This document shows, in pieces, positions 12,575-27,841 of a stretch of DNA of 64,000 bases. Each line of letters begins with the position of its first letter. The first letter of the stretch is position 1. The notes under the pieces are model-generated. The model saw nothing but the letters and a program-made list of their open reading frames with translations, was not told where the DNA came from and searched no databases. Source of the DNA: Bacteroidota bacterium. Its GTDB lineage: Bacteria; Bacteroidota; Bacteroidia; Bacteroidales; Prolixibacteraceae. Location of the stretch: assembly GCA_024278975.1 (NCBI GenBank), contig JAJRSD010000031.1, positions 1-64,000 on the forward strand, given 5' to 3'. Position numbers and translations under genes: made by a program.

Positions 12575-14188
12575 CTATTTGATTGCAATTTCAGCCTCTT
12601 TTTCAGGGTGAATTTTAAAAGTCAGACTTCTCTTAATACTTTTTCCAACCGGAGATATAAACAAGCGACCTGCATTGGATTCGTCGCAATATTCAAAAAT
12701 AATTTGCTCCGAAGCCGGCGACATCAATATATCGTCCTGAGAAAGATTTCTTAAATTTGGGACAAAAACTACAGTTGGCGCACTGCTATCTTTAGTTTCA
12801 TTCCAAATACAAGTAAATTCACCACTACTAAAATTGTAATCGTATTTCACCAAATCGCCTGCAACACGTTCAGGATATGGTCTTATAATTGCATTATTAA
12901 AATATGGATAATCATGAATGTCGCTATAAAAAGCCCAGTATGTATTACTAAAATTGTACTCTTCAAAAAGGTTTACGACATGTTGTGCAGTTTCTGTCAT
13001 TTTAAGCGATTTGCCGTGATATGCGCCCCACTCTCCTATCATTACAGGCACATTCATTCTTTTTCCGGTTTCGTTAATTCTGTCGAAAATTAGCTCAACA
13101 CGTTCTAAACTGGGGTTCTCAACTTCTTTTGTATCCACAACCAAATCGTAACCATGCGCACCATAAGCAATTAAAGAATCGGTAGTTCCATCGGCAAGTT
13201 TTGTTGGTTCGAGTGCACTTCGCACACCGGTATTTGCAAAATAACTGTGATTAAAAAACAGAATATGTTTTTTATCTACTTCGCGAATTGCATCAGCCAT
13301 TTTTTGATACATTGGTTGCAACAGATTTTTTTCAAAATCGGCATTTAACTCATAAACTGCATCTACAATTTTTGAATATCTTTCTTTGGTGGCAACTAAT
13401 TCGAGAGCTTTTAATCTCGATTCTTCATCGCCCCACATTGCCATCAACTCTTCGGCTGTTGGCGGTGCCTGCCCGGTAAATTCTACCATAACTTGCGCGT
13501 AAGCACCCAACATTTGTGGCATTATATAATTTGCAGAACTACCAAGAAAAGGTTCGTTCATTATATCGTAACCAATTACTGTTGTGTTGTTTGCATACCT
13601 TTTTGCAATGTGGTTCCACAAATTTGCGTAGTGGTCTTGCAAACCAACTCCATCTGCTGCCGGAGTGTTCTTCCAGAAATTATCGAAAGCCGTTTGTACG
13701 GCAGGACTAATGAGATATGAATCGCTCCAAACTGCACCTGAATAGTGTGGTTGTCCTTCATCCAAAGTTGCCCAATCGGGTGCACCGTCAGAGAATTTTG
13801 CGCCATATAAATCCTGGTGCATATCGAGAAAGACATAAATTTCATTGTCTTCTGCCCACTGAATTCGTTTATCGATTTCCAATAAATACTCTTCGTTGTA
13901 TTTTCCTGGTTCCGGCTCCAGACCATCCCAGATAATGCCCAACCTAATACAGTTGAAACCCCATTTTTTAAAGCTCTCAAAAGTTTCCTGATTTTGGGGA
14001 GGCATATAATTATGTGATGGTTCCTTACTAATAAAGTTTATTCCGCTAAAAATAATCTGTCGACCATTCGAATCAACAAATTTTTGCCCTTCAATTTGAA
14101 CAAAACCTTTTTCTACCGGTTTTTTCTCGATTCCACACGACATAATCAGGAGAGAAACAAACAATAAAAATATGAGTTTTAAATACAT
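12575..14188 (-). CDS. GH5 endoglycoceramidase-like lipoprotein
   Basis: A 537-aa enzyme resembling endo-glycosylceramidases, which cut the bond between the glycan and ceramide of glycosphingolipids. The signal peptide ends in LIMSC (Cys18), a lipobox. GH5 features: GFNCIRLGIIWDGLEPEPG near 77-95, FLDMHQDLYG near 120, the acid/base Glu in YDIMNEPF (Glu212) and the nucleophile Glu in MIGEWGAYHG (Glu386). The long insert between these and the C-terminal beta domain are usual for the endoglycoceramidase subgroup. It lies downstream of a PKD lipoprotein and SusD/SusC, with an intervening terminator hairpin. Steryl-beta-glucosidase-like GH5 activity is an alternative. Confidence 0.85.
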   Translation of the reverse strand: MYLKLIFLLFVSLLIMSCGIEKKPVEKGFVQIEGQKFVDSNGRQIIFSGINFISKEPSHNYMPPQNQETFESFKKWGFNCIRLGIIWDGLEPEPGKYNEEYLLEIDKRIQWAEDNEIYVFLDMHQDLYGAKFSDGAPDWATLDEGQPHYSGAVWSDSYLISPAVQTAFDNFWKNTPAADGVGLQDHYANLWNHIAKRYANNTTVIGYDIMNEPFLGSSANYIMPQMLGAYAQVMVEFTGQAPPTAEELMAMWGDEESRLKALELVATKERYSKIVDAVYELNADFEKNLLQPMYQKMADAIREVDKKHILFFNHSYFANTGVRSALEPTKLADGTTDSLIAYGAHGYDLVVDTKEVENPSLERVELIFDRINETGKRMNVPVMIGEWGAYHGKSLKMTETAQHVVNLFEEYNFSNTYWAFYSDIHDYPYFNNAIIRPYPERVAGDLVKYDYNFSSGEFTCIWNETKDSSAPTVVFVPNLRNLSQDDILMSPASEQIIFEYCDESNAGRLFISPVGKSIKRSLTFKIHPEKEAEIAIK

Positions 14189-14219
14189 AAGTAACTCCTT
14201 AATAGTTTTTAATAAAAAA

Positions 14220-14255
14220 ATTACAGCTTTTTATGAATACACAAAAAGCTGTAAT
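14220..14255 (-). terminator. rho-independent terminator after the PKD gene
   Basis: ATTACAGCTTTTT pairs perfectly (13 bp) with AAAAAGCTGTAAT, and on the minus strand it is followed by a run of seven T. It lies 9 bases past the stop of the PKD lipoprotein gene and about 30 bases before the GH5 start, so it would reduce GH5 transcription from the SusC promoter. Confidence 0.8.
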
Positions 14256-14263
14256 CAAATAAA

Positions 14264-15217
14264 TTATTTTGTCTTATAAGTTATGGTTACCATCACCGAT
14301 GGATGTTCCATAAACTGTGCATAGGTAGGTGGGTTGGTGTGAAAAAGAATTGACAATTGCATTTTATCGGCGGTTATATCGCGGATAATAATATGCTGCG
14401 TAAAATCTTTTACACCAAACAAATCTCCTGTTGTTTCAAAATAATCTGTATCGGTAAAAGTTACATCTCTTGCATCGGGTGTGCCGCCGAACATTGGATC
14501 CTGATCGTCGCGAACGGTAACCGTAAAATCACCTTTTTTATGTTCCCAGGTTGAAGGGCTTATTGCGGTGTGGCTAATTCCTGCCATCATTATGTCGTAA
14601 CTTGTTGGCGGGAAAGTTATGGTATGCCATCCCTGTGCAACACCAACCTCGGCATAAACAACACCGGCAAGCACACTTCCGTTTACATTGTTTACCGAAT
14701 AACTACCGTCGTATTTAAACGTAAACTCATTGTCATATTCAGCCTCTAAACCAAATCCATATAACACATTGTCCTGCAAAGGCATTACATTGTTCACAGT
14801 TTCGTTAATCAAACCGGCTCCGTCGGTTGCCGAAACTTTTGTATCGAGCACCCATGTTTTTCCATTTGGCATACCCGGACCACCCGAAAGCAACTCGCCA
14901 ATTGAAGCTGCGATTGTAACCTCTTTTGTATCGGTAGCAGAACCTCCGTCGCCGGTTACTGTAACTTTAGCTGTATAAACACCCGACATGGCATAAACAT
15001 GACTTGGGTTTGCTTCAACACTCGACTCACCATCGCCAAATTCGTACAAGTAGTTTTTTACATTTTGAACATTAGCTGTAAAATTAACCTGATAAGGGTT
15101 GTCTGCATCTACTTCAGCAAACAGTTCAACTACCGGTGGAACCGGATCTTCACTACAAGAAAACATAATTGTTGCGATTACTACCATCGCAAATAAAGAA
15201 TAAAAACTCTTTTTCAT
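14264..15217 (-). CDS. PKD-domain surface lipoprotein
   Basis: A 317-aa lipoprotein: the signal peptide ends in IMFSC (Cys21). A PKD domain covers about 30-108, with YEFGDGESS and PSHVYAMSGVYTAKVTVTG typical of this beta-sandwich. The remaining 200 residues are beta-rich and not recognised. By position right after SusD it may be the glycan-binding protein of the locus (inference). It is followed by a strong terminator. No catalytic motif is visible. Confidence 0.75.
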   Translation of the reverse strand: MKKSFYSLFAMVVIATIMFSCSEDPVPPVVELFAEVDADNPYQVNFTANVQNVKNYLYEFGDGESSVEANPSHVYAMSGVYTAKVTVTGDGGSATDTKEVTIAASIGELLSGGPGMPNGKTWVLDTKVSATDGAGLINETVNNVMPLQDNVLYGFGLEAEYDNEFTFKYDGSYSVNNVNGSVLAGVVYAEVGVAQGWHTITFPPTSYDIMMAGISHTAISPSTWEHKKGDFTVTVRDDQDPMFGGTPDARDVTFTDTDYFETTGDLFGVKDFTQHIIIRDITADKMQLSILFHTNPPTYAQFMEHPSVMVTITYKTK

Positions 15218-15261
15218 AATACTAAAATTTAAATTAAATAATTATTTATAATCTATTTCTA

Positions 15262-16749
15262 TTAATCTCGAACGTCCCACCAAAGGTGAGTTGTAATTAA
15301 ATCGGGGCCTTGTTCAGCAATGGCCGCCTCGTAATTTTCTCTATTTATATTGACTTCAGATGAGGGATAACGGAGCCGTGTTGGCAACACACCATTTGTA
15401 ACACCTAGCGAGTGCGTTGGTTCAGTACGTTGCGGAATTCGCGGATAACCGGTCCTTCTTATGTTTGCCCATCCTTCGTGAGAGTTGGAATGAACTGCAA
15501 TCCAAAGTTGGGTGCAAATTTGCTCGAACTTCTGTTCCTGAGTTCCTTTCAATGTAGAATAATCGGCATTGGTCATGTACTCATAAATTTGTTCCTGAGT
15601 AACTTTCCACTGTTCGAACGACATCTCAATTCCTTTTCGGTATAGCTCGTTTGCATCGCCGGGTCCTAAATTATAGAGTGCTGCTTCGGCACGAAGTAAC
15701 CAAATTTCCGCCGCTGTCATTTCTGAAATGGAGGCGGCTCTGCCAACCAGTGTATCGGAAGGATCGGATACATCGGACCAAACCCATTTAGGCAGTTCCT
15801 GATCGCTTAATCCGTTGGGAATTCCTACATATTCTCCCTTGCGATTAGGTTTAACAAAAAGGTATAATCTTGGATCGTCGGTTGTTTTCAATGTTTCAAC
15901 AAACTTCTCGCTCATTTTCCATTTCCAGTACTGGTAATGGCTATACATTGGGTTTCCTAATTCATTTAAATCGCTGTCTTCGTTTTCGCCACCAGCAGCC
16001 TGATTGAGTTCCTCTATTAAAGGTAACGCAAGACATTCGGCAATTATGGGATTTGCCAACTCGGGAGCTACAAACCTGACACGCATTGCAAAACGTAAGC
16101 GCAAAGAATTGGCGAATCTTGCCCACTTCTTCAAATCGTTATTGTAGAGTGGATCTTCCTGAGTATAACCCATTGCCGGGTCGGCATTTTGCAATAGAGG
16201 GATAATAGTTTTAAGTCGCTCCATCATATCGGTATAAATAAACTCAACACTATTGTATTTCGGGAACAAAAAACCTTCCTGTCCCAATCCACCTTCGATG
16301 TATGGCACACTGCCAAACGTATCAGCCAAACGGGCATAATTCATAAAAGCTACTACCTGCGCCATTGCAAACCTGACTTCATTTTCCCGTTCTCCACCGG
16401 GGCGGGTAAATCTCATTACTTCAGTAACAAGCCTGATTGGCCCATAATAAAAATCCTGAAACAGGTCTTTGTACTCTGCTCCTGTAAAATAATCGTAATA
16501 TCTGTCGATAAACATGGCATTATTTTGCCCAACATAGTAGTGCCCAAGTTGCGAGCCAAAAGGAAATTGCAACCTTGTGTTATTGCCTCCACGAATGGTA
16601 CTTAAAACAGTATTCGAAAACAGGTAACCATCGTCGATTTCAGTAACGGCATTAGGATTTTTGTTTATTTCAGCAAATTTATCGTCACACGACGAACCAA
16701 AAATAAGTAACAAAACCAGTACTAAATATATATTTTTATGTTTCATCAT
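15262..16749 (-). CDS. SusD/RagB-family nutrient-binding lipoprotein
   Basis: A 495-aa outer-membrane lipoprotein that forms the lid of the SusC transporter and binds the incoming glycan. The lipobox is FGSSC (Cys21). The usual sequence KFAEINKNPNAVTEID follows, and the family ending RLRYPSSEVNINRENYEAA is near 460. It most resembles the SusD-like_2 subgroup. It begins 19 bases after the SusC stop, as expected for a translated pair. Two adjacent ATG codons are possible starts. Confidence 0.92.
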   Translation of the reverse strand: MMKHKNIYLVLVLLLIFGSSCDDKFAEINKNPNAVTEIDDGYLFSNTVLSTIRGGNNTRLQFPFGSQLGHYYVGQNNAMFIDRYYDYFTGAEYKDLFQDFYYGPIRLVTEVMRFTRPGGERENEVRFAMAQVVAFMNYARLADTFGSVPYIEGGLGQEGFLFPKYNSVEFIYTDMMERLKTIIPLLQNADPAMGYTQEDPLYNNDLKKWARFANSLRLRFAMRVRFVAPELANPIIAECLALPLIEELNQAAGGENEDSDLNELGNPMYSHYQYWKWKMSEKFVETLKTTDDPRLYLFVKPNRKGEYVGIPNGLSDQELPKWVWSDVSDPSDTLVGRAASISEMTAAEIWLLRAEAALYNLGPGDANELYRKGIEMSFEQWKVTQEQIYEYMTNADYSTLKGTQEQKFEQICTQLWIAVHSNSHEGWANIRRTGYPRIPQRTEPTHSLGVTNGVLPTRLRYPSSEVNINRENYEAAIAEQGPDLITTHLWWDVRD

Positions 16750-16768
16750 TTTTTTACTCTTTAAACAA

Positions 16769-19700
16769 TTAGAAGTTGAATTTTACACTAAGTCCATAAC
16801 TCGATGTCGATGGCAGCGACATGTGCTCGATTGCTGACCCGGTATTACCACTGCTAAAACCCGATTCGGGATCGACATGGTCGATGGCCTTATAAAAGAA
16901 AAACAGATTACGCCCAACCAGCGATACACTCAACCATTTCGACGGTAAAGTGTAACCCAAAACCATCTCTCTCATACGAACATTTGTTGCTTCCATAATC
17001 CACTCGGTACCAATTTGTTTGTTGTATAAATTATACCAACGGTAAACCGGTTGGATAGGGATATCATTGGGTTGCCCGTTCGTCTCTTTAATTCCATCCT
17101 CAACGAACCCTCCGGTTCCGGCATACCATTCGTCACGTCCTTCGAGAGTTTCGACACTGGTGCCAAACAAAGCGCGGTATGCTTTTCCCCATGAATATAT
17201 GTCGCCTCCTTTTTGAAAATCAATCAGGAAACTCATGTTAAACCCTTTGTAACTGAACTGGTTTGTTATACCACCAATCCAATCGGGATTTAAATCGCCC
17301 ATCGCTTTCCACTCTCCCGATTGCGCAAATCCGTTTTTGTCAATTAGTTTATTTCCAAAAGCATCGCGTTTATAATCGAGCGCATAAATCACTCCATAAG
17401 GTTGATCGATGTGTGCTTCAATTGACATGTGAAACTCGTTGGCCAACGATAAAAATTCCATATCGCCATATAACTCTTTCACAACCGAATTATTTTTCGA
17501 CCAGGTAACAATAATATCCCAGTTAAAACCATTCTTTAATGATACTGGATTTCCGTTTATCTGAACCTCAAGTCCTGTATTCTGAAGTTTTCCTGCGTTC
17601 ATCTTTTTGGTTGCATAGGCTGTTGACGGTGCCAAAGAAACATTCATAATTTGATTATCAGACATGCTATAATAATAGGCGACATCTAAAATTAACCGGT
17701 TATCAAAAAAACCAAGATTTGTTCCAAGTTCCCACGAGCTGGTCTCTTCCGGTTTTAAGTCGTAATAGGGTAACTGGCTTCCGATATTTGCCTGAGGATA
17801 ATCGGTATTGGTTTGCGATATATTGTAATATTGCTCGATTTGGTAAGGGCTTGTGTCGTTACCAACTTTTGCAAACGATGCCCTTATTTTTCCTTTTGTC
17901 AATATTTTTTTGCTGATATTGAATGCGTCGGAGAACAAGAAACTCAGGTTTTCGGAGTGATAGAAATATGAGTTGTTTTCGAGGGGCAAGGTAGAAGACC
18001 AGTCGTTACGTGCAGTAATATCGAGATAAATTAGACTCTTGTACGACAAAGTTCCGAGCGCATAAGCCGAATAGACCGCTTTTTGCGAATACCACTCTCC
18101 TGTTCCATAACCTTTGTAATTTGAAATGTGGTAGAAGTCGGGTACTCGTATTGCATATCCGCTTTGCGACATCGAGAAGTTTTCGTTGTATCTGTAATTT
18201 CCACCAACACTTACATTAAAATTAAAGTCTTCAATCTGCTTGTCGTAAGCCATCAAAACATCCGTATTCCACTCAATATTGTTATTCATGCTCTGCGACA
18301 TTTTCCCCCGGCTATTTTCAACATTTGGGTTACCGGGGTCTTCACTGCTTCGGTATCTTTTATTCGAGAAATCGAAACCTGTCCTTCCCATTAAAGCCAG
18401 ATTGTCCAGGATATCATATTTCATTTGGAACATAGCCTGAATCCGGTGTTTCTCATCGTTGTTTCGTTTATGTTCCATAATCCAGTACGGATTACTAAAA
18501 GTATTATCGGTATTCCATTTCATAATGTTACCATTCTCGTCGGTCGTATTATTTCGCAACGACTCTAACGTAATATTTCGTGGCATAACTCCCAAAGCCT
18601 GCACAACGTTTGCACCACTCTCTGCGAGGTACGGGCGATTTTCAACAACCGAACGTATGTAAGTAAGTTTGGCATCGACACCAAATTTTTTGCCCAATTG
18701 GGAAGTTCCACGAAGATTGATGTTTTGTCTTTTCAGATTGTTATTGGGCATAATTCCTTTCGAATCCTGATTGGTTATTGAAGCACGAAATGAAGATTCT
18801 TCGTTACCACCGTTAAACGCCACTGTATTTGTAAATGTAGAACCTGTCCTGAAAAACTCTCTGTATGGATCAGCCTGCGGGGTAAGCGTTTCTTCTACTC
18901 CAAGCCAATTAACTTCTGTTTGTCCTTCCATTTTAGACCCATAACTCCAAATCCATGGATAATCTTTTAAAGGTACTGCAGGATCTCCTGCCAATCCTGG
19001 ATATCGTCCGAAAGAACCTTGTGCATATTCGTTTTGAAAATCGGGAGTAACCATTGGGGTTTCAACCATGTAGCTCGACGAAATTGATACGCCAATACCT
19101 TGACGGCTTTTACCTTTTTTGGTAGTTACCAGAATAACACCGTTTGCTCCCCGCGAACCGTAAGCTGCTGCTGCTCCTGCACCTTTTAACACGGTCATCG
19201 ATTCAATATCTTCCGGGTTTAAATCCGACAGAGCATCTCCGCTGTCAGTACCTCCCCACCGGTCACCGCCACCGTAACTCGATTCCATCGGGATTCCATC
19301 GATTACGAAAAGTGGTCGGTTATTTCCCAGCATCGACGAAACACCCCGCAATACAACCCTCGACGAACCATCAACACCAGTGGGTGCTCTGGTAATTTGC
19401 AAACCCGCAACTTTTCCGGCAAGCGAATTAACCGGGTTGTTCTCTTTTGCATTGTTTATTTCATCGCTACCGATTTGGGTAACAGAATACCCCAACGAAC
19501 TTTTATTTCGCTGAATATTTAAAGCTGTTACAACTACCTCATCAATAGATTCTGTATTTTCTATTAATACAATGTCGATTGTATTATTTCCGGCAACAGG
19601 AATATCCTGTGTCTCGAAACCAATAAACGAAAATTGCAAAACAGTATAATTATCAGGTACTTCAATTGTGTATTCGCCATCTAAATTTGTGATAACCCCC

Positions 19701-20113
19701 GTTGTTGTTCCTTTTATAACAACATTCACCCCGGGTAATCCCAGTTTATCGGTGGGCGAAGTTACCTTCCCTGTAACTGTTTTAGCTTTCTGTATTTCGT
19801 CTGCCGGAACAACAACAATAAGTTTATCCTCTTTTAAACGGAATGTTAGGTTAGTTTGTCCTTCGAGTTCACCAATAATATCCTCAATTGTTTTATTCTT
19901 TATTGTAAGGTTGATTTGTTTATTAATATCAACCAAATCATCGCTGTAAAAAAATCGGTAACCACTCTCCTCCTGAATGGTTTTGAAAACCTCTTGTAAA
20001 GGAGAATTCTCAATTTTAAGTGAAATTTTCTCTTGCGAATAGCCTGTCGCCGAGAATAAAATAAAATAAAATAGTAGCACTTTTAATTTCATAGAAATAG
20101 TTTTAATATTCAT
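16769..20113 (-). CDS. SusC-type TonB-dependent transporter with STN domain
   Basis: A 1114-aa outer-membrane pump for oligosaccharides or glycoconjugates driven by TonB. Order of parts: signal peptide to about SQEK at 29, an STN signalling domain about 33-100 (EESGYRFFYSDDL), a carboxypeptidase-regulatory-like domain about 112-190, the plug from 192 with DEVVVTALNIQR and the SusC signature GVILVTTKKGK near 330, then the 22-strand barrel ending in F. The STN domain means it should signal to the adjacent FecR. The FecR stop and this ATG are directly adjacent. An internal ATG seven codons later (MKLKVLLFYF) could be the true start. Confidence 0.93.
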   Translation of the reverse strand: MNIKTISMKLKVLLFYFILFSATGYSQEKISLKIENSPLQEVFKTIQEESGYRFFYSDDLVDINKQINLTIKNKTIEDIIGELEGQTNLTFRLKEDKLIVVVPADEIQKAKTVTGKVTSPTDKLGLPGVNVVIKGTTTGVITNLDGEYTIEVPDNYTVLQFSFIGFETQDIPVAGNNTIDIVLIENTESIDEVVVTALNIQRNKSSLGYSVTQIGSDEINNAKENNPVNSLAGKVAGLQITRAPTGVDGSSRVVLRGVSSMLGNNRPLFVIDGIPMESSYGGGDRWGGTDSGDALSDLNPEDIESMTVLKGAGAAAAYGSRGANGVILVTTKKGKSRQGIGVSISSSYMVETPMVTPDFQNEYAQGSFGRYPGLAGDPAVPLKDYPWIWSYGSKMEGQTEVNWLGVEETLTPQADPYREFFRTGSTFTNTVAFNGGNEESSFRASITNQDSKGIMPNNNLKRQNINLRGTSQLGKKFGVDAKLTYIRSVVENRPYLAESGANVVQALGVMPRNITLESLRNNTTDENGNIMKWNTDNTFSNPYWIMEHKRNNDEKHRIQAMFQMKYDILDNLALMGRTGFDFSNKRYRSSEDPGNPNVENSRGKMSQSMNNNIEWNTDVLMAYDKQIEDFNFNVSVGGNYRYNENFSMSQSGYAIRVPDFYHISNYKGYGTGEWYSQKAVYSAYALGTLSYKSLIYLDITARNDWSSTLPLENNSYFYHSENLSFLFSDAFNISKKILTKGKIRASFAKVGNDTSPYQIEQYYNISQTNTDYPQANIGSQLPYYDLKPEETSSWELGTNLGFFDNRLILDVAYYYSMSDNQIMNVSLAPSTAYATKKMNAGKLQNTGLEVQINGNPVSLKNGFNWDIIVTWSKNNSVVKELYGDMEFLSLANEFHMSIEAHIDQPYGVIYALDYKRDAFGNKLIDKNGFAQSGEWKAMGDLNPDWIGGITNQFSYKGFNMSFLIDFQKGGDIYSWGKAYRALFGTSVETLEGRDEWYAGTGGFVEDGIKETNGQPNDIPIQPVYRWYNLYNKQIGTEWIMEATNVRMREMVLGYTLPSKWLSVSLVGRNLFFFYKAIDHVDPESGFSSGNTGSAIEHMSLPSTSSYGLSVKFNF

Positions 20114-21217
20114 TTATTCGTTAGTTTCAATATCTTTAAACCAAACATCTCTGTCTTTTATATTATATGCAATATTGGCAGCAATACCAATCGCTTCAAT
20201 TACCTGTTCAATGGTTTCATTCTCAATAGAACCGGTAAATTTAAGTTTCTTCAGATTTTCATTCTCGAAGTGAATTTTCACATCGTATTTACGTTCTAGT
20301 TTAACAGCAAGTTCATTAAGAGTTTCGCTTGTAATGAACAGAGTTCCATCTTTCCACGATGTAAATTCTCCGGCATTTATTCCTTTTGAAATAAGATAAG
20401 TAAGTTTCTGCTGCGGACGAACAACTGCTTCTGGTGTTGTTTCAATATTATTATCGTCTATATTTTCCTTTTTAACATATCTGTTTTTCCGATAATAAAC
20501 AACTCGTTGATTTGGTTCTAACATCACCTCATCGCTCTTTTTATTTTCAAAAGTTGTACGGGTTACGCCAATACTTCCTTCAATCAATGTAGTTTCTATT
20601 GTTCCTTCTTCAGCGTACGATTTTACATTAAAAGTTGTTCCGTACGCTTTTATATTTAATTCCGATGTGCGTACCAAAAATACTTTTGAAGGATTGGTTT
20701 CAACATCAAAAAATGCCTCGCCTGTTAAAAATACTTCTCTTGTTTTTTTATTGAATTGATTTGAATATTTTAAAGTACTTCCCGCATTAAGCCAAATAAC
20801 TGTTCCGTCGGGCAGTGTAACTTTAGATTTTGCACCTGACGGAGTATCTATTTCATTATAAACGAGCTCATTATTATTCGAATTAAAAACCTGATATGCT
20901 ACTGCAAAAGAGAGTATTGCACCGAGTAAAAATACGGCAGCAACTCTTGGCATCCAATACCAAAATATACTAACCGATTTACCTGTGGTTTTCTTTTTAT
21001 GCTTAACTTTTATGAGCAAAGTATTCCACTCTTCCCGAATTAAACTGGCATTAATTTTTTCAACGTTCTCCGATAGATTCCATATCTGCCTATAATCGTT
21101 TAACTCATTTAACGAACCCGGATTATTTTTAATCCATCGAATAAGCAAATCTTCATTCTCCGGGGAGATTGATTTCTCGAGATATGCGATAAATAATTCC
21201 TTAATTTTCTGATTCAT
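20114..21217 (-). CDS. FecR-family anti-sigma factor
   Basis: A membrane-spanning anti-sigma factor that would pass the signal from the STN domain of the neighbouring SusC to an ECF sigma factor. I use the ATG giving MNQKIKELFIAY (about 367 aa); the track adds 12 codons. The cytoplasmic N part covers about 1-85, a membrane segment AAVFLLGAILSFAVAYQVF follows near 98, then the FecR domain (KVTLPDGTVIWLNAGS) and a C-terminal DUF4974 domain (KLERKYDVKIHFEN). The cognate sigma factor usually lies just upstream; here that place holds an unrelated lipoprotein and no ECF sigma gene is in the window. Confidence 0.92.
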   Translation of the reverse strand: MNQKIKELFIAYLEKSISPENEDLLIRWIKNNPGSLNELNDYRQIWNLSENVEKINASLIREEWNTLLIKVKHKKKTTGKSVSIFWYWMPRVAAVFLLGAILSFAVAYQVFNSNNNELVYNEIDTPSGAKSKVTLPDGTVIWLNAGSTLKYSNQFNKKTREVFLTGEAFFDVETNPSKVFLVRTSELNIKAYGTTFNVKSYAEEGTIETTLIEGSIGVTRTTFENKKSDEVMLEPNQRVVYYRKNRYVKKENIDDNNIETTPEAVVRPQQKLTYLISKGINAGEFTSWKDGTLFITSETLNELAVKLERKYDVKIHFENENLKKLKFTGSIENETIEQVIEAIGIAANIAYNIKDRDVWFKDIETNE

Positions 21218-21330
21218 TTTATAGAATTTGATAATAAGGAAACTGAAAAGCAAAAATCACTTACAGCAAAACTGAGTTTTTTTAAAAAAATAAATTTCTT
21301 GAAATTGAATCGATAAGAATATAGAATCTC

Positions 21331-22032
21331 TTAGTCAATCTTTTTGAATAACAACAACTCTTTTCCTGAATCGTTGGATAATACTAATTGCATATTTTCA
21401 GTTTTATATCTGGCAACCTTGCTTAACGCCACATTAAACTTATCCGGAATGTCAGTCCCCATACATGCCATTTTGGTTATGGCAAGCTGACTTAATATCA
21501 AATTTTCAGCATCAATGTTTTTAATACTTCCGAAAAAATTGTTACATCCGTCGTTGCCCATCACTTTCATCTCGGCAATATGAAACTCAATCTGAGGTAT
21601 TTTATGTCTCTTATTTGTAGTAATTTGCTCAACGGTTTCTCCTTCAATAGATACCAAAACCCAAATATCGTTTATCCGAAAACGTACATCTTGTCTCTTT
21701 TCAATAACCTTTACCAAAATGAATTTTATTGATGAAGCATCGGCAGGAACTTTCTTCTTATCTATTTTTTCTTCGCGCACAATTAACTTATAAATATATC
21801 CCGGAACGTAATCAAACCCATCGATTGAAGAATAAAAATATTGCCAGCTCTCATTATTTAGAGTATCTCCTTTTTGTACTTTTAAACAATTTGTAGCCCT
21901 AACTCCTTCGCAAGGTACTTTAGAACTATTTACCCAATAAATGTACTCGTTGGGTTTGCTAATTTTGTTTGCTTTATGAGTGGCGCACGAAACCACGAAA
22001 AATAAAATTCCCAGCATTAAATAGTTTTTCAT
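21331..22032 (-). CDS. DUF4377 and META-domain lipoprotein
   Basis: A 233-aa lipoprotein with lipobox FVVSC (Cys16). The first half (about 25-110) fits DUF4377, including VNSSKVPCEGVRATNCLKVQ. The second half is a META (HslJ-like) domain: DIWVLVSIEGE, EFHIAEMKVMGNDGCNNFFG and KMACMG. META proteins are linked to heat resistance or secretion in other bacteria, with no firm biochemical role. It reads away from the MFS gene across a 172-bp divergent gap and towards fecR, but 110 bp separate it from fecR. Confidence 0.8.
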   Translation of the reverse strand: MKNYLMLGILFFVVSCATHKANKISKPNEYIYWVNSSKVPCEGVRATNCLKVQKGDTLNNESWQYFYSSIDGFDYVPGYIYKLIVREEKIDKKKVPADASSIKFILVKVIEKRQDVRFRINDIWVLVSIEGETVEQITTNKRHKIPQIEFHIAEMKVMGNDGCNNFFGSIKNIDAENLILSQLAITKMACMGTDIPDKFNVALSKVARYKTENMQLVLSNDSGKELLLFKKID

Positions 22033-22204
22033 TATTCCTGTTTTATGTAATTTCTTATTGAAACGAATATAAGGCTTTTATGTTTATACTTCCTTTAATA
22101 TCTCCTTTAACTTTAAACAACTTCCTCATTATATCCATTTTTACAAGAAATTTTTCTTTCTTTATGATACAAATTTTTCAATTAAAAAAACTAAATCAAT
22201 TATA

Positions 22205-23449
22205 ATGTCAGCAACTATTCTAAGCTCTAAATCCGACACACAAAGTTCGAAAACTTATATTATAGTTACCGCATTTGCAGCTCTTTTTGCACTCGTTGGA
22301 TTTGCCTATTACGGATTACCATTTTTCTTCGATTTTATGGTAAACGATTTTGGTTATTCGCGAGCTCAGGTAACATCCGGAAATGCAGTTGGCAAATTAA
22401 TAGTAGCCCCACTATTCGGATTTCTTGCCGGGTGGATGATTGACAAATACGGACCGCGCCGGTTAATGATGCTGGGAGCCGTTTTAATGGGAGTTGCATT
22501 TGTCGGGCTTAGCTATTCAAGCAGTATGTGGATGTTTTATATGTTCTACATTTTTAATGCTTTGGGTTATGTTTTTGGCGGGCCATTACCATGTCAGGTA
22601 CTAATATCGAAATGGTTTACCAAAAACCGTGGCAAGGCAATGGGAATTGCATATCTCGGAATTGGTGCCGGTGGTGCACTTGTACCACTGCTTGCCACAA
22701 AACTGGAGAGTAATCTGGGGTGGCAAAATGCTTTGTCAATTCTTGGTGTACTTATAATTATCATCGCATTTCCGTTGGCATTTTTTATAAAAGATTCAAC
22801 AAAAGCAAAGGCAAAAATTAAAACTAAAAAAGCCGAACTTGCAATACCTATGAAAGATATTTTAAGGAACAAAAACTTCTATCTTTTAGCTTTTGGAAGT
22901 ATGTGTTCCATTGGTGCTGTTGGTGGAGTAGGGCAACATTTAAAACTTTATTTAGGTGATCTCGATTTTACACAATCGCAGGCAGCAAATATATTTTCAA
23001 TTGTACTGTTATCCAGTCTTTTTGGAAGAGTTGCAATGGGTTGGCTCTCCGATATTATCGACCGCAAATATGTGATGGTTCTGATTTATCTTATCGTGGC
23101 AATGGCTATCGCTTCACTATTTTTGCCGCCGTTTGCAGGTAGAATTTATGTTTTTGCCGTTGTCTTCGGAATTGGTCTTGGTGGCGATTATATGATTATT
23201 CCGTTAATGGCAGGCGACCTGTTTGGGGTACGCGCTTTGGGGCGAACCATGGGAATAATTCTGGTTGCCGATGGTCTGGCAGAATCATTTTTTCCGGTAC
23301 TGGTAGGTTACTTATACAACGATGTGGCAAGGTATTCCATCGGATTTGGAGTCCTTATTTTTGTTGCTCTCACGGGCGTTTTGATTATTTCATTTCTGCC
23401 TAAAGTTAGAAAGAAAGACAGAATACAAGAAGCTGTTGAACACGCCTAA
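22205..23449 (+). CDS. MFS transporter, OFA/monocarboxylate-like
   Basis: A 414-aa inner-membrane carrier with 12 predicted membrane helices. The MFS loop motif GWMIDKYGPRRLMMLG lies between helices 2 and 3 and its second copy GWLSDIIDRKY near 280. The sequence around SKWFTKNRGKAMGIA is typical of oxalate/formate and monocarboxylate antiporter relatives, so an organic acid or modified amino acid is a reasonable guess for the substrate. It is the first gene of a four-gene operon and presumably brings in the compound the next three enzymes handle. The M20 gene begins 16 bases after its stop. Confidence 0.85.
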   Translation: MSATILSSKSDTQSSKTYIIVTAFAALFALVGFAYYGLPFFFDFMVNDFGYSRAQVTSGNAVGKLIVAPLFGFLAGWMIDKYGPRRLMMLGAVLMGVAFVGLSYSSSMWMFYMFYIFNALGYVFGGPLPCQVLISKWFTKNRGKAMGIAYLGIGAGGALVPLLATKLESNLGWQNALSILGVLIIIIAFPLAFFIKDSTKAKAKIKTKKAELAIPMKDILRNKNFYLLAFGSMCSIGAVGGVGQHLKLYLGDLDFTQSQAANIFSIVLLSSLFGRVAMGWLSDIIDRKYVMVLIYLIVAMAIASLFLPPFAGRIYVFAVVFGIGLGGDYMIIPLMAGDLFGVRALGRTMGIILVADGLAESFFPVLVGYLYNDVARYSIGFGVLIFVALTGVLIISFLPKVRKKDRIQEAVEHA

Positions 23450-23465
23450 AAATGAGACAGCAACT

Positions 23466-24596
23466 ATGAATTCACTAAATGTAATATCGCTAACACAGAA
23501 ATTAATTGCGTTTAATACAATTAATCCACCGGGCAACGAAAAAGAGCTGGCAAAATATGTGGGCAATCTACTTTCGGAAAATGGTTTCGATGTTGAATAC
23601 ATTTTATTCGAAGAGAACCGGCTGCATGTTATTGCTGAAAAAGGACTCTCTGAAACAGCACTGCCAGTGGTGTTTTCAGGTCATTTAGATACAGTTCCGC
23701 TGGGAGCAAAAAAATGGAGTTTCGCCCCATTTGCAGGAGAAATTTTCGATGGTAAAATATACGGTCGGGGTTCAACCGACATGAAAGCGGGAGTGGCTGC
23801 AATAATTGTAGCTGCAATACAATCGTTTAAAAACAGCTCGCCAAAAGGAGGAGTTAAACTTGTAATTACTGCCGGCGAAGAGCTGGGATGCCAGGGAGCG
23901 CAACATCTTGCAAAAACATATAAAAAATGGGGCAAAGCAAGTGGTTTAATAATTGCCGAACCCACAACAAATATTCCGGTAATCGGACATAAAGGCGGGT
24001 TATATATGAATGTATCAACCACAGGAATCACTGCACATTCGTCGATGCCTGAGTTGGGAGTAAACGCAATTTACAAAGCTGCAAAAGCAATCTCGGTAAT
24101 CGAAAATTTCAGTTTTGAAGCCGAAAAAGATTCACTGCTCGGATCGCCAACAATTAACGTTGGTAAAATGAGCGGCGGAATGAATCTAAACTCGGTACCC
24201 GACCATGCCGAATTTACAATCGACGTTCGTTCAACAACAAAAGTAAATCATACTGAAATTATTCAAAAAATAAATAATGAGTTGGGAGACGATACAAACA
24301 TCGAGATTCTTGTAAACCTGCCTCCCGTTTCAACAAACGAAAACCAGCCGTTTGTACAATTAGTTTACGATGTGTGCAAAGTTGACCCGACAAGCAGCGA
24401 ATTCCCAAAAGCATTACCCTATTTAACTGATGGAAGTGTTTTGCAAAGTGCTTTCAACAACGTGCCAACAATAATCTTGGGTCCGGGACAACCCGAAATG
24501 GCGCATCAAACCGATGAATTTTGTTATATCGAAAAAATTGAGGAAGCAGTAGAAATTTATAAAACAATAATAGATAGAAATGGAAAATTATCCTGA
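23466..24596 (+). CDS. M20-family metallohydrolase (ArgE/DapE-like)
   Basis: About 376 aa, a cytoplasmic two-zinc amidohydrolase of the deacylase/dipeptidase type. I use the ATG at 23466; the track's TTG start overlaps the MFS gene. The metal ligand series is complete: SGHLDTVPLG, GRGSTDMKAG, AGEELGCQG, IAEPT and MAHQTDEF. A dimerisation domain (about 170-280) is present. By motif it fits N-acyl amino-acid or succinyl-diaminopimelate deacylases, but position in a transporter-SDR-aldolase operon argues for a catabolic deacylation step rather than lysine or arginine synthesis (inference). It overlaps the next gene by 17 bp. Confidence 0.85.
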   Translation: MNSLNVISLTQKLIAFNTINPPGNEKELAKYVGNLLSENGFDVEYILFEENRLHVIAEKGLSETALPVVFSGHLDTVPLGAKKWSFAPFAGEIFDGKIYGRGSTDMKAGVAAIIVAAIQSFKNSSPKGGVKLVITAGEELGCQGAQHLAKTYKKWGKASGLIIAEPTTNIPVIGHKGGLYMNVSTTGITAHSSMPELGVNAIYKAAKAISVIENFSFEAEKDSLLGSPTINVGKMSGGMNLNSVPDHAEFTIDVRSTTKVNHTEIIQKINNELGDDTNIEILVNLPPVSTNENQPFVQLVYDVCKVDPTSSEFPKALPYLTDGSVLQSAFNNVPTIILGPGQPEMAHQTDEFCYIEKIEEAVEIYKTIIDRNGKLS

Positions 24597-25617
24597 ATAT
24601 TTTAAAAATGAAAATGAGTTAGAAGAGGCACTTTCAACACCAACACCGGAAGTTATTGAGTTGGTAAAAAAGTTAGAAGGTGATATTATCTTTTTGGGAG
24701 TAGCCGGAAAAATGGGAGTTTCCATGGCGCGGATGACAAAAAAAGCCTGCGATATTGCAGGTGTTAAAAAACGGATAATCGGAGTTTCCAGATTTAGCTC
24801 GGAAGAACAACGACAGTTTCTTGAGGAGAGTGGGATAGAGACATTCAAGGGCGATTTAATGGACATGGAATTTATTGGCAGTCTGCCCAAAATTGAGAAT
24901 GTTTACTATCTGGCAGGAATGAAATTCGGAACCTCAGGAAACGAATCTTTTACCTGGGCAATGAACTCTTATCTACCCGGACTTATTGCCGATAAATTTA
25001 AAAACTCGAAAATAGTAGCATTTTCAACCGGCTGTGTTTATCCGCTCGTTTCATATAAAACAGGTGGCTCTAAAGAGACCGACCACACCGGTCCGGTTGG
25101 CGAATACGCACAATCGTGCCTTGGCAGAGAGCGACTTTTCGAATTCGGAAGTATAAATAATCAAACTCCGGTTTTGCTAATTCGGCTGTTTTATGCCGTC
25201 GAAATGCGCTACGGTGTTCTTGTTGATATTGCCACAAAAGTGTATAACGAAGAGCCGGTTGATGTTACAATGGGTTATGCAAATGTAATTTGGCAAGGCG
25301 ATGCAAACGCAATGATATTGCAAACAATATTGCATTGCAAAAGTCCTGCATTCGCCATAAATATTACAGGCCCCGAACTTATTTCAATTAAAGAGACAGC
25401 CATAAAATTCGGCAAACTGATGAATAAAAAGGTAACAATCACCGGAACCGAAAACAGTACTGCATTGTTGGGAAATGCCGACTTATCATTTAAATTATTC
25501 GGAAAACCAAAAGTTAAACTCGATAAAATAATGGAGTGGACTGCAAAATGGATTGAAGATGAGAAAAGACTTTTAGGGAAACCAACTCATTTCGAAGTTA
25601 GAGACGGGAAATACTAA
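24580..25617 (+). CDS. NAD-dependent epimerase/dehydratase-like protein, altered active site
   Basis: A 345-aa extended-SDR fold protein. The nucleotide-binding motif GVAGKMG is near residue 39, and FSTGCVYPL near 148 holds the usual Ser/Thr. The catalytic YxxxK is changed: the matching segment is GEYAQSCLGRERLFE, with Cys where Lys is expected, so the chemistry may differ from normal epimerases or dehydrogenases. The C-terminal domain contains GYANVIWQGDANAM, a typical substrate-side motif of the fold. It overlaps the M20 gene by 17 bp and ends 10 bp before the DapA-like gene, so translation is probably coupled. The substrate is unknown. Confidence 0.78.
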   Translation: MENYPEYFKNENELEEALSTPTPEVIELVKKLEGDIIFLGVAGKMGVSMARMTKKACDIAGVKKRIIGVSRFSSEEQRQFLEESGIETFKGDLMDMEFIGSLPKIENVYYLAGMKFGTSGNESFTWAMNSYLPGLIADKFKNSKIVAFSTGCVYPLVSYKTGGSKETDHTGPVGEYAQSCLGRERLFEFGSINNQTPVLLIRLFYAVEMRYGVLVDIATKVYNEEPVDVTMGYANVIWQGDANAMILQTILHCKSPAFAINITGPELISIKETAIKFGKLMNKKVTITGTENSTALLGNADLSFKLFGKPKVKLDKIMEWTAKWIEDEKRLLGKPTHFEVRDGKY

Positions 25618-25627
25618 ATATTAGAAA

Positions 25628-26695
25628 ATGAATCACACAGAAATTCCAAAAGATATAAAAAACGCATTTCAAAAAGGAACAGTAATTCCTGCTCTCCCAC
25701 TCGCACTCGATAAAAATCGTAAACTCGACGAACGCCGCCAACGTGCGTTAATGCGATATTATCTCGATGCCGGAGTTGGAGGTGTTGCAGTTGCTGTGCA
25801 TACAACTCAGTTCGAAATTAGGTTGCCCGAAGTAAATCTTTACGGTAAAGTTCTCGAAATTGCAAAAGAGGAGTTCCACAGTTTTGAGGAACGAACTCAA
25901 AAGCCAATAATCAGAATTGCCGGAGTAATCGGGAAAACCGAACAGGCAACCAATGAAGCCAAACTGGCACTTAAAAATGGTTACCATGCAATTTTACTGG
26001 GACTTGCAGCTTTTGCCGATTCTGATAATGATGAAATAATTGCACACTGTAAAACCATTGCCGAAATAATTCCGGTTGTTGGTTTTTATCTGCAACCTGC
26101 TGTTGGAGGTCGTAGATTAGATGTTGATTTTTGGCGCGAATTTGCAAAAATAGAAAATGTAATTGCCATTAAAATGGCACCGTTTAACAGGTATCAAACA
26201 TTCGACGTTGTACGTGGTGTGGCAGAATCGGGCAGGGCAGATGAAATTGCTTTATACACAGGTAACGATGATAATATTCTAATTGATCTATTATCGGAAT
26301 ACAAAATTACTGTTGGCGATAAAGTTATTAAAAAACGGATTGTGGGCGGATTGCTTGGGCACTGGGCAGTATGGACACGAACAGCAGTTAAACTGCTTGA
26401 AGATATTAAAAGTGGAAAATACGACGCAGACACGCGGCAGGCGATAACTCTGGCAAATCAGATTACCGACAGTAATGCAGCCTTTTTCGATTCGGCAAAT
26501 AATTTTGCAGGATGTATTGTTGGACTTCACGAAGTACTTCGCCGCCAGGGAATTCTTGAAGGACTTTGGACTTTAGATAAAGACGAGGTACTTTCGCCCG
26601 GACAGATGGAGGAGATTGACAGAATTTACGCTGCATATCCCGATCTGAATGACGATGATTTTATTACGGAAAATTTAAGTAAATGGTTAGGATAA
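25628..26695 (+). CDS. DapA-family class I aldolase/lyase
   Basis: A 355-aa TIM-barrel protein of the dihydrodipicolinate synthase/N-acetylneuraminate lyase superfamily, which forms a Schiff base between Lys and a keto acid. The Lys is seen in VIAIKMAPFN near 185 and the Tyr in VVGFYLQPAVGG near 155. The usual GTTGE loop is replaced by AVHTTQFE near 58, and the protein is about 60 residues longer than DapA, with an extra helical C terminus. It is therefore unlikely to be the lysine-pathway enzyme and more likely an aldolase for a catabolic intermediate. Last gene of the operon; no terminator is evident before the convergent DUF3179 gene. Confidence 0.82.
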   Translation: MNHTEIPKDIKNAFQKGTVIPALPLALDKNRKLDERRQRALMRYYLDAGVGGVAVAVHTTQFEIRLPEVNLYGKVLEIAKEEFHSFEERTQKPIIRIAGVIGKTEQATNEAKLALKNGYHAILLGLAAFADSDNDEIIAHCKTIAEIIPVVGFYLQPAVGGRRLDVDFWREFAKIENVIAIKMAPFNRYQTFDVVRGVAESGRADEIALYTGNDDNILIDLLSEYKITVGDKVIKKRIVGGLLGHWAVWTRTAVKLLEDIKSGKYDADTRQAITLANQITDSNAAFFDSANNFAGCIVGLHEVLRRQGILEGLWTLDKDEVLSPGQMEEIDRIYAAYPDLNDDDFITENLSKWLG

Positions 26696-26704
26696 TGGTT
26701 TGTA

Positions 26705-27841
26705 CTAACTTAGTCTAAGCAATTTACTTTTGGGATGAAATTTTTTCCAAGAGAACCAATATTCATTCGATATTGCAATAGTTTCTAAATTATTTTTAAT
26801 TGTTCCGTCAATATGTCTGCCCGTAATATCCCAGTTAGTTTTAGTTATAGTATCTTCAATTACCTGGTTGTTTTTAAGTCTTAAAATAATGTTTTTGGTT
26901 CTGAATCCATTTACAGTATTGTCGATAGAGATAAGCGTGAAGTTTAATTTTTCATTTTTCACAACTGTTTGTTGTAACACTTCTGATTTTAAATAAAATA
27001 CAGGTTCACTTATGGCGGTATCTGTAATACCAACAACATCTGTTTTAGATGGAAATGTTTTATCTTTATTCGATAGTCCCGGAGTAAGTTCCGACGACAT
27101 TACTTTTTTCCAAACGCCTGGCATCGGAAGTTTAAAAGGTCTGAGGTCATTTTCATTTATAATAGCAACTTGAGGCTTGCTTTTTAATTTCTTAACTGTT
27201 TTCCAGGGTAAAATCTGAAATGTTATCATTTTTAGAGAATGAGGGTGTAATTTCCCGATAACTGAATTAAAGGATGCTTGCTGAAAAAAGGTTCCTGTTT
27301 TATTATCAGCCACAATCATATTTGCATTTTTAAACGACGCAACAAACAAGGGACCTATTTCTGTAACATCAAAAGGAATAATACTTTTGCACATAGCACA
27401 ATAAGTAAGTGCCACCGTTTTATCCTTGAAATAATCATTTACTACATGATGATGTATGACATAATTCAAGGGATATGCTTTCACGATACCTTCATATTCA
27501 ATAAGAGCAATTTCATGATCATCTGATAGGGGAAGTGAATCAAAATCATCCGTTAATTCAGGGAAATAAACAGCCTTAAACCAATTTGACTGATGAACTT
27601 TATAGGTTAAAATTACTGCTAAACCAATAATTATTAATGGAGGTATTACATTTGCATTAAATCCATTTGACGAGTTAATAAACTGATATCCAATGGAAAC
27701 TATGAATATACTCCAAATAAGTGGTTTCCTGAAGTGATAGTGATAATATAGTAATTTAACAGGAAATTTTTCTACTAAAGTAAAAATTGCTCCCATTCCA
27801 ATAATCAAAGAAAAAAAAGCTATTGTATAAAATATTGTCAT
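26705..27841 (-). CDS. DUF3179 membrane protein
   Basis: A 378-aa protein with three or four membrane segments in the first 90 residues (FFSLIIGMGAIFTLV, LIWSIFIVSIGYQFI, PLIIIGLAVILTY) and a DUF3179 domain from about 105. The domain shows GIVKAYPLNYVIHHHVVND and VALTYCAMCKSIIPFDV, whose CxxC pair is family-typical. The function of DUF3179 is not established. It ends only 10 bases from the end of the DapA-like gene on the other strand and is separated from the S9 gene by 48 bp. Confidence 0.85.
   Translation of the reverse strand: MTIFYTIAFFSLIIGMGAIFTLVEKFPVKLLYYHYHFRKPLIWSIFIVSIGYQFINSSNGFNANVIPPLIIIGLAVILTYKVHQSNWFKAVYFPELTDDFDSLPLSDDHEIALIEYEGIVKAYPLNYVIHHHVVNDYFKDKTVALTYCAMCKSIIPFDVTEIGPLFVASFKNANMIVADNKTGTFFQQASFNSVIGKLHPHSLKMITFQILPWKTVKKLKSKPQVAIINENDLRPFKLPMPGVWKKVMSSELTPGLSNKDKTFPSKTDVVGITDTAISEPVFYLKSEVLQQTVVKNEKLNFTLISIDNTVNGFRTKNIILRLKNNQVIEDTITKTNWDITGRHIDGTIKNNLETIAISNEYWFSWKKFHPKSKLLRLS

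Follow-up and report, generated by a model that had tools for sequence, protein, structure and literature searches.

We analysed a 64,000-nucleotide stretch of DNA (the window) from a Bacteroidota bacterium of the family Prolixibacteraceae (assembly GCA_024278975.1, contig JAJRSD010000031.1), which contains an operon of four genes coding for a carrier (P0001), an M20 hydrolase (P0002), a protein with the short-chain dehydrogenase/reductase (SDR) fold (P0003) and an aldolase-like protein (P0004). The operon is more than a chance arrangement because the pair formed by its last two genes recurs across phyla, and the conserved unit is this SDR-aldolase pair, with front ends that are interchangeable. 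The system is real, conserved and built from known superfamilies. Our tentative reading, which we hold at somewhat less than an even chance, is that the operon is catabolic and that the pair of an SDR and a class I aldolase-like protein serves a non-phosphorylative route for an N-acyl compound, probably the N-acyl form of an amino acid or amino-sugar acid. The features of the operon are as follows.

22033..22204, + strand: intergenic region expected to carry the operon promoter
22205..23449, + strand: P0001, major facilitator superfamily (MFS) carrier of the monocarboxylate/oxalate-formate type, 414 amino acids
23466..24596, + strand: P0002, M20 metallo-deacylase of the ArgE/DapE family, 376 amino acids
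24580..25617, + strand: P0003, extended-SDR-fold protein, 345 amino acids
25117..25119, + strand: codon of Cys180 of P0003, at the lysine site of extended SDRs (from residue counts in 130 sequences)
25628..26695, + strand: P0004, aldolase-like protein of the dihydrodipicolinate synthase/N-acetylneuraminate lyase (DHDPS/NAL) superfamily, 355 amino acids
25799..25807, + strand: codons of H58-T59-T60 of P0004, in the place of the GTTGE loop (H58 and T60 invariant in 143 sequences)
26171..26173, + strand: codon of the Schiff-base Lys182 of P0004 (invariant in 143 sequences and aligned with the catalytic lysine of DHDPS)

Conservation of the pair was followed in 80 named genome loci, belonging to many phyla, that were found with a P0004 profile. 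In 70 of these loci the aldolase gene is preceded, on its own strand and mostly within 300 bp, by a gene for a relative of P0003, and at nine loci there is no SDR in the stretch examined, two of these having the aldolase at a contig end. The same arrangement is observed in most of 144 loci. Pairwise identities in the P0003 and P0004 families are correlated with each other (r 0.84), a value to which shared ancestry contributes. Deposited plasmid records that contain the pair come from Alphaproteobacteria, Actinomycetes, Bacilli and Planctomycetes, with the gene order reversed in some Actinomycetes. The two families are present as a single copy each in the genome of the window, and the aldolase family occurs in about one sixth of the sampled relatives of this genome, in 90 of 201 sampled genomes from the order of a Paenibacillus and in 22 of 249 from the order of a Hyphomicrobiales genome. 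Among named organisms, Draconibacterium and Maribellus have the aldolases most closely related to P0004. In some relatives of the genome (G004, G032 and G022) the pair occurs twice, with different surroundings (loci L016/L024, L017/L025 and L020/L026). Two haloarchaeal plasmids (L114 and L115) contain the SDR with no aldolase nearby, and in L115 the SDR is followed by a fumarylacetoacetate hydrolase (FAH)-type gene whose matches include one, below its cut-off, to the 2,4-didehydro-3-deoxy-L-rhamnonate hydrolase model.

P0004 matches Pfam family PF00701 (E 3e-10), and a structure model made from an alignment of ten relatives (pLDDT, the predicted local distance difference test, 81) has the DHDPS/NAL fold, in agreement with the DapA-like assignment made by an earlier model reading of the letters of this stretch (the sequence-only reading). 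When P0004 relatives were aligned by HMMER to the solved DHDPS 1xky, K182 fell on the Schiff-base lysine and Y154 on the catalytic tyrosine. Among 143 family sequences K182, H58, T60, Q61 and F62 are invariant and Y154 is present in 140, which places the family, at the level of fold, among the TIM barrels with Schiff-base lysine and catalytic tyrosine that make up this superfamily. Where DapA has the carboxylate-binding loop GTTGE, nearly all 143 sequences have V-H-(T/S)-T-Q-F, and P0004 has VHTTQF. The loss of this loop had been claimed by the sequence-only reading, and the 1xky alignment, which sets H58-T59-T60-Q61 opposite T-T-G-E, adds that one threonine is kept. The same reading had described an extra C terminus. 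With 355 amino acids against about 292 in solved DHDPS, P0004 is indeed longer by about 60 residues, although part of the additional length looks internal in the model, where residues 224-229 and 232-241 form a strand pair. The libraries searched hold no specific model for this family, and P0004 scores far below both the DapA model TIGR00674 (21.9 bits, cut-off 206) and the NanA model TIGR00683 (27.7 bits, cut-off 382). We therefore reject P0004 as a member of the NanA sialate lyases. We also reject a lysine route for the operon since the genome has a separate bona fide DapA that scores 308.7 bits with TIGR00674. The poor fit of lysine and sialate routes anticipated by the sequence-only reading is thus upheld.

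P0003 itself has no match in Pfam or NCBIfam, and eight of ten relatives match the Epimerase family. A structure model made from an alignment of ten relatives (pLDDT 85) has the extended-SDR fold. In a Foldseek search its nearest fold was the NADP-dependent oxidoreductase TerB (6d2v), with 17% identity over the Foldseek alignment, followed by sugar-nucleotide epimerases and GalE structures. The sequence G40xxG43KxG46 supplies the GxxGxxG of a Rossmann fold, with the three glycines invariant in the family, which indicates membership of the extended SDRs at fold level. S149 and Y176 are kept in all 130 family sequences and K44 also never varies. However, the position of the YxxxK lysine (180) is Cys in 106 of the 130 sequences, most commonly V, A, T or S in the others, and never Lys, so that the family lacks the classical Ser-Tyr-Lys triad. 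The altered active site reported by the sequence-only reading is thus a family-wide trait. R71, which follows the second strand and is present in 118 of 130 sequences, would suit NADP(H).

The two genes in front of the pair also belong to recognisable families. P0001 matches PF07690 (E 5e-55), has the L-lactate transporter 6g9x as a solved relative, and has its best NCBIfam match to the L-lactate transporter SfMCT (NF049980), where 154.9 bits against a cut-off of 320 places it outside SfMCT. P0002 matches PF01546 and PF07687 and scores 243.9 bits with TIGR01910, over the cut-off of 217.6, and it is thus a member of the ArgE/DapE family of M20 deacylases, with the motifs SGHLDT, GRGSTDMK, AGEELG, AEPT and AHQTDE all intact. 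It belongs to neither specific equivalog, scoring 203.3 versus 297.7 for AcOrn-deacetyl and 139.4 versus 361.8 for dapE_proteo.

We also explored the genes around the pair, using six-frame profile searches for all neighbor counts since longer opposite-strand frames hide genes in GC-rich loci. An M20 gene lies within 6 kb and on the same strand as the pair in 39 of 138 loci, relative to a chance expectation of about 1.3 loci (estimated from 84 M20 genes in about 59 Mb), which is a rough contrast as the loci are related. Mapped on the aldolase tree, the presence of M20 switches 25 times or more. As different M20 types occupy the same place, the link of M20 to the pair is convergent. The families of the operon thus keep company in other genomes, as the sequence-only reading would have it. 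Other deacetylase families that recur near the pair are of the NagA type, the D-aminoacylase type (Amidohydro_3) and YdjC. NagA, NagB-like or NanE genes are found at some Paenibacillales loci, and NanE adjoins the pair in L128, L167 and L186. Serine ammonia-lyase types (L- and D-serine) are near the pair in 18 of 138 loci. In Paenibacillales, SdaBA comes right after the aldolase at 32 of 60 loci, and in 23 of the 60 the full order SDR-aldolase-SdaB-SdaA-M20 is accompanied by one adjoining regulator family. Enolase-superfamily partners, for which no solved relatives were found by sequence, occur in Alphaproteobacteria, Acidobacteriota and one actinomycete (Glaciihabitans), and are joined by TIM-barrel epimerase and Gfo/Idh genes in Hyphomicrobiales, Acidobacteriota and Glaciihabitans. 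In Hyphomicrobiales the pair has either an ABC importer, with a GNAT gene between SDR and aldolase, or a tripartite tricarboxylate transporter (TTT)-type importer with an enolase-superfamily protein and a TIM-barrel epimerase. Bacteroidota loci consist of a carrier, M20, SDR and aldolase, often with GNAT, where the carrier is Nramp-like or, as in the window, MFS. In all, importers of many kinds and substrate-binding proteins adjoin the pair. A GH20 gene and an RpiR-type regulator are near some of its relatives, and DegT genes are present in L085 and L114.

Several of these neighbors have features of their own. The GNAT proteins have an Acetyltransf_18 domain and occur in 30 of 138 loci, lying between SDR and aldolase in Alphaproteobacteria (L066, L078, L108, L109 and others) and after the pair in Bacteroidota. 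The Nramp-family carriers beside the pair have GPGS for DPGN and no MPH in the sixth helix, and so are missing the metal-binding motifs. They are exemplified by L018:9039-10262 (P0005), with the same place filled in many Bacteroidota loci, and by L115:8358-9608. The carriers may transport an organic substrate, although similar changes are also known in the Mg2+ and Al3+ branches. In many Paenibacillales the SDR-aldolase operon is flanked by a regulator of about 450 amino acids (L121:3839-5215, L120:12732-14078 and others) with weak matches to GGDEF/GTP-cyclohydrolase-III and to a Crp-type helix-turn-helix.

In regard to the layout of the operon in the window, the four genes are spaced, in order, by 16 bp, a 17-bp overlap and 10 bp, the tight packing that the sequence-only reading had described. 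The length of P0002 is counted from the ATG that aligns with its relatives, and a TTG at 23436 is also open. Genes on the opposite strand flank the operon on both sides (21331-22032 and 26705-27841), which indicates that the four genes are a complete unit. Neither an RNA family nor a Bacteroidota-type promoter pattern was found in 22033-22204, and the one sigma-70-like site (22140-22168, 10/12 match) is at chance level. Further upstream, a divergent locus on the - strand (12575-21253) codes for SusC/SusD-like proteins, a FecR-like protein, a PKD protein and a GH5 protein, the last having a match to endoglycoceramidase I that is below cut-off.

Taken as a route, P0001 would import a small organic anion and P0002, which has the family assignment and metal-ligand motifs of a deacylase, would strip an N-acyl group. 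P0003, having Ser and Tyr and missing the Lys, would then alter the hydroxyl or keto state of the freed acid. Finally, P0004 would form a Schiff base between Lys182 and the resulting 2-oxo acid and split the latter, with pyruvate and an aldehyde as the most likely products. The sequence-only reading had proposed the same order of uptake, deacylation, oxidation or isomerisation and aldol cleavage. The order itself is what we infer, and for P0003 oxidation is not assured as the catalytic lysine is missing. Catabolism is argued by the many kinds of import systems that adjoin the pair, and an N-acyl substrate is suggested by the deacylases that recur in front of it. The proven ong route for N-acetylglucosaminate, compared below, offers a parallel in favour of our reading. 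Serine-type ammonia-lyases acting on 2-amino-3-hydroxy acids and enolase-superfamily dehydratases acting on sugar acids yield 2-keto-3-deoxy acids, on which class I aldolases of the DHDPS/NAL superfamily usually act, and other hosts of the pair would reach the same step through one or the other of these enzymes. The likeliest substrate class may therefore be the N-acylated 2-amino-3-hydroxy acids, for example those derived from amino sugars. More doubtful is the wider proposal, in which a pathway that is undescribed and non-phosphorylative would break down N-acylated 2-amino-3-hydroxy (amino-sugar) acids in many bacterial phyla and have the pair as its core, with a Lys-less SDR passing its product to a histidine-loop class I aldolase. 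Several observations weigh against our reading. Neither an ammonia-lyase nor a dehydratase is encoded in the window operon, which would leave formation of the 2-oxo acid to P0003, an SDR that is without the usual lysine and may not be a normal dehydrogenase. In addition, the SdaA of Paenibacillales may serve ordinary serine as it is often the sole copy in the genome, M20 and serine-lyase presence show no correlation beyond ancestry, and the gene contexts of the pair vary widely between phyla.

Other explanations account for parts of these data. The enolase-superfamily, TIM-barrel epimerase and Gfo/Idh neighbors, together with the FAH-type hydrolase that follows a haloarchaeal SDR, would fit a nitrogen-free sugar-acid module in which a dehydratase of the enolase superfamily or of another kind forms a 2-keto-3-deoxy acid, the SDR oxidises it, P0004 splits it and M20 serves another branch. 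This we consider unlikely, since M20 genes of different types occur far above chance and one is within the window operon itself. The position of SdaBA in Paenibacillales, where it is usually the only Sda of the genome, raises a somewhat less probable idea, that M20 releases L-serine from a conjugate for deamination by Sda, with the other half degraded by the SDR-aldolase pair. In L105 the Sda is over the equivalog cut-off for L-serine ammonia-lyase and D-serine-dehydratase-like genes are present at other loci, but neither the window operon nor most other phyla have a serine enzyme.

The pair could also be anabolic, with a DapA-like condensation with pyruvate followed by SDR reductase, GNAT acyltransferase, DegT aminotransferase and M20 deacylase steps that give a modified amino acid. 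This set of families mirrors dapA-B-D-C-E, and the GNAT and DegT genes and the ArgE/DapE type of M20 are consistent with it. However, GNAT, DegT and M20 are rarely together, importers and substrate-binding proteins adjoin the pair and the genome has its own DapA, all of which make an anabolic role improbable. We give still less credence to P0004 being a lyase for a sialic-acid-like nonulosonate in place of NanA. Its best profile match among solved structures is N-acetylneuraminate lyase and three loci have NanE beside the pair, but its NanA score is minimal and, in the genomes with NanE, other DapA-family proteins match the NanA model with up to 246 bits where P0004 relatives are near the floor.

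No description of this gene combination or pathway was found in the literature searched, which excluded most subscription journals, and only unrelated pathways surfaced. The enzymes thus are of known superfamilies, while the subfamilies and the pathway appear to be undescribed in that literature. The sequence-only reading had likewise called the operon uncharacterised. Deposited annotations of the pair read 'dihydrodipicolinate synthase family protein' and 'NAD(P)-dependent oxidoreductase' or 'NAD-dependent epimerase/dehydratase'. Once the substrate is identified, the annotation of very many genomes could be put right and a breakdown route would be added, and the fixed operon of Paenibacillales makes the system testable in ordinary soil bacteria. 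Its interest lies in this breadth and testability and not in proven new chemistry.

Each component can be compared with a known system. SfMCT-type L-lactate/oxalate-formate MFS carriers are of the same family as P0001 and include its nearest solved relative, whereas P0001 is under the equivalog cut-offs and most Bacteroidota relatives have an Nramp-like carrier in its place. P0002 shares the TIGR01910 family score and metal-ligand motifs with ArgE/DapE deacylases but is below the cut-offs of the specific ArgE and DapE models given above. P0003 has the fold, the GxxGxxG and the active-site Ser and Tyr of extended SDRs such as TerB and UDP-glucose epimerases, yet its whole family lacks the YxxxK lysine. 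P0004 shares fold, Schiff-base lysine and catalytic tyrosine with DapA, NanA and KdgD and differs from them in its VHTTQF loop, its longer chain and scores far below all curated cut-offs. For the route as a whole, N-acetylglucosaminate (GlcNAc1A) catabolism by the ong pathway of Pseudoalteromonas is a proven deacetylation-deamination route to 2-keto-3-deoxygluconate (KDG), in which OngB has the D-aminoacylase fold, OngC is a pyridoxal phosphate (PLP) deaminase and KDG is phosphorylated by KdgK (PMC9537276; OngB structure, PMC12017989). It resembles the proposed route in uptake, de-N-acetylation without phosphorylation and deamination to a 2-keto-3-deoxy acid, and it features GH20 and an RpiR-type regulator, both of which are also near some relatives of the pair. 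In contrast, the window operon has M20, an SDR and a DapA-like protein with no kinase and no PLP enzyme, and none of its four genes is in the OngB, OngC or KdgK families. By this comparison the ong pathway is the closest worked-out parallel to the proposed route, of which the operon is not itself a member.

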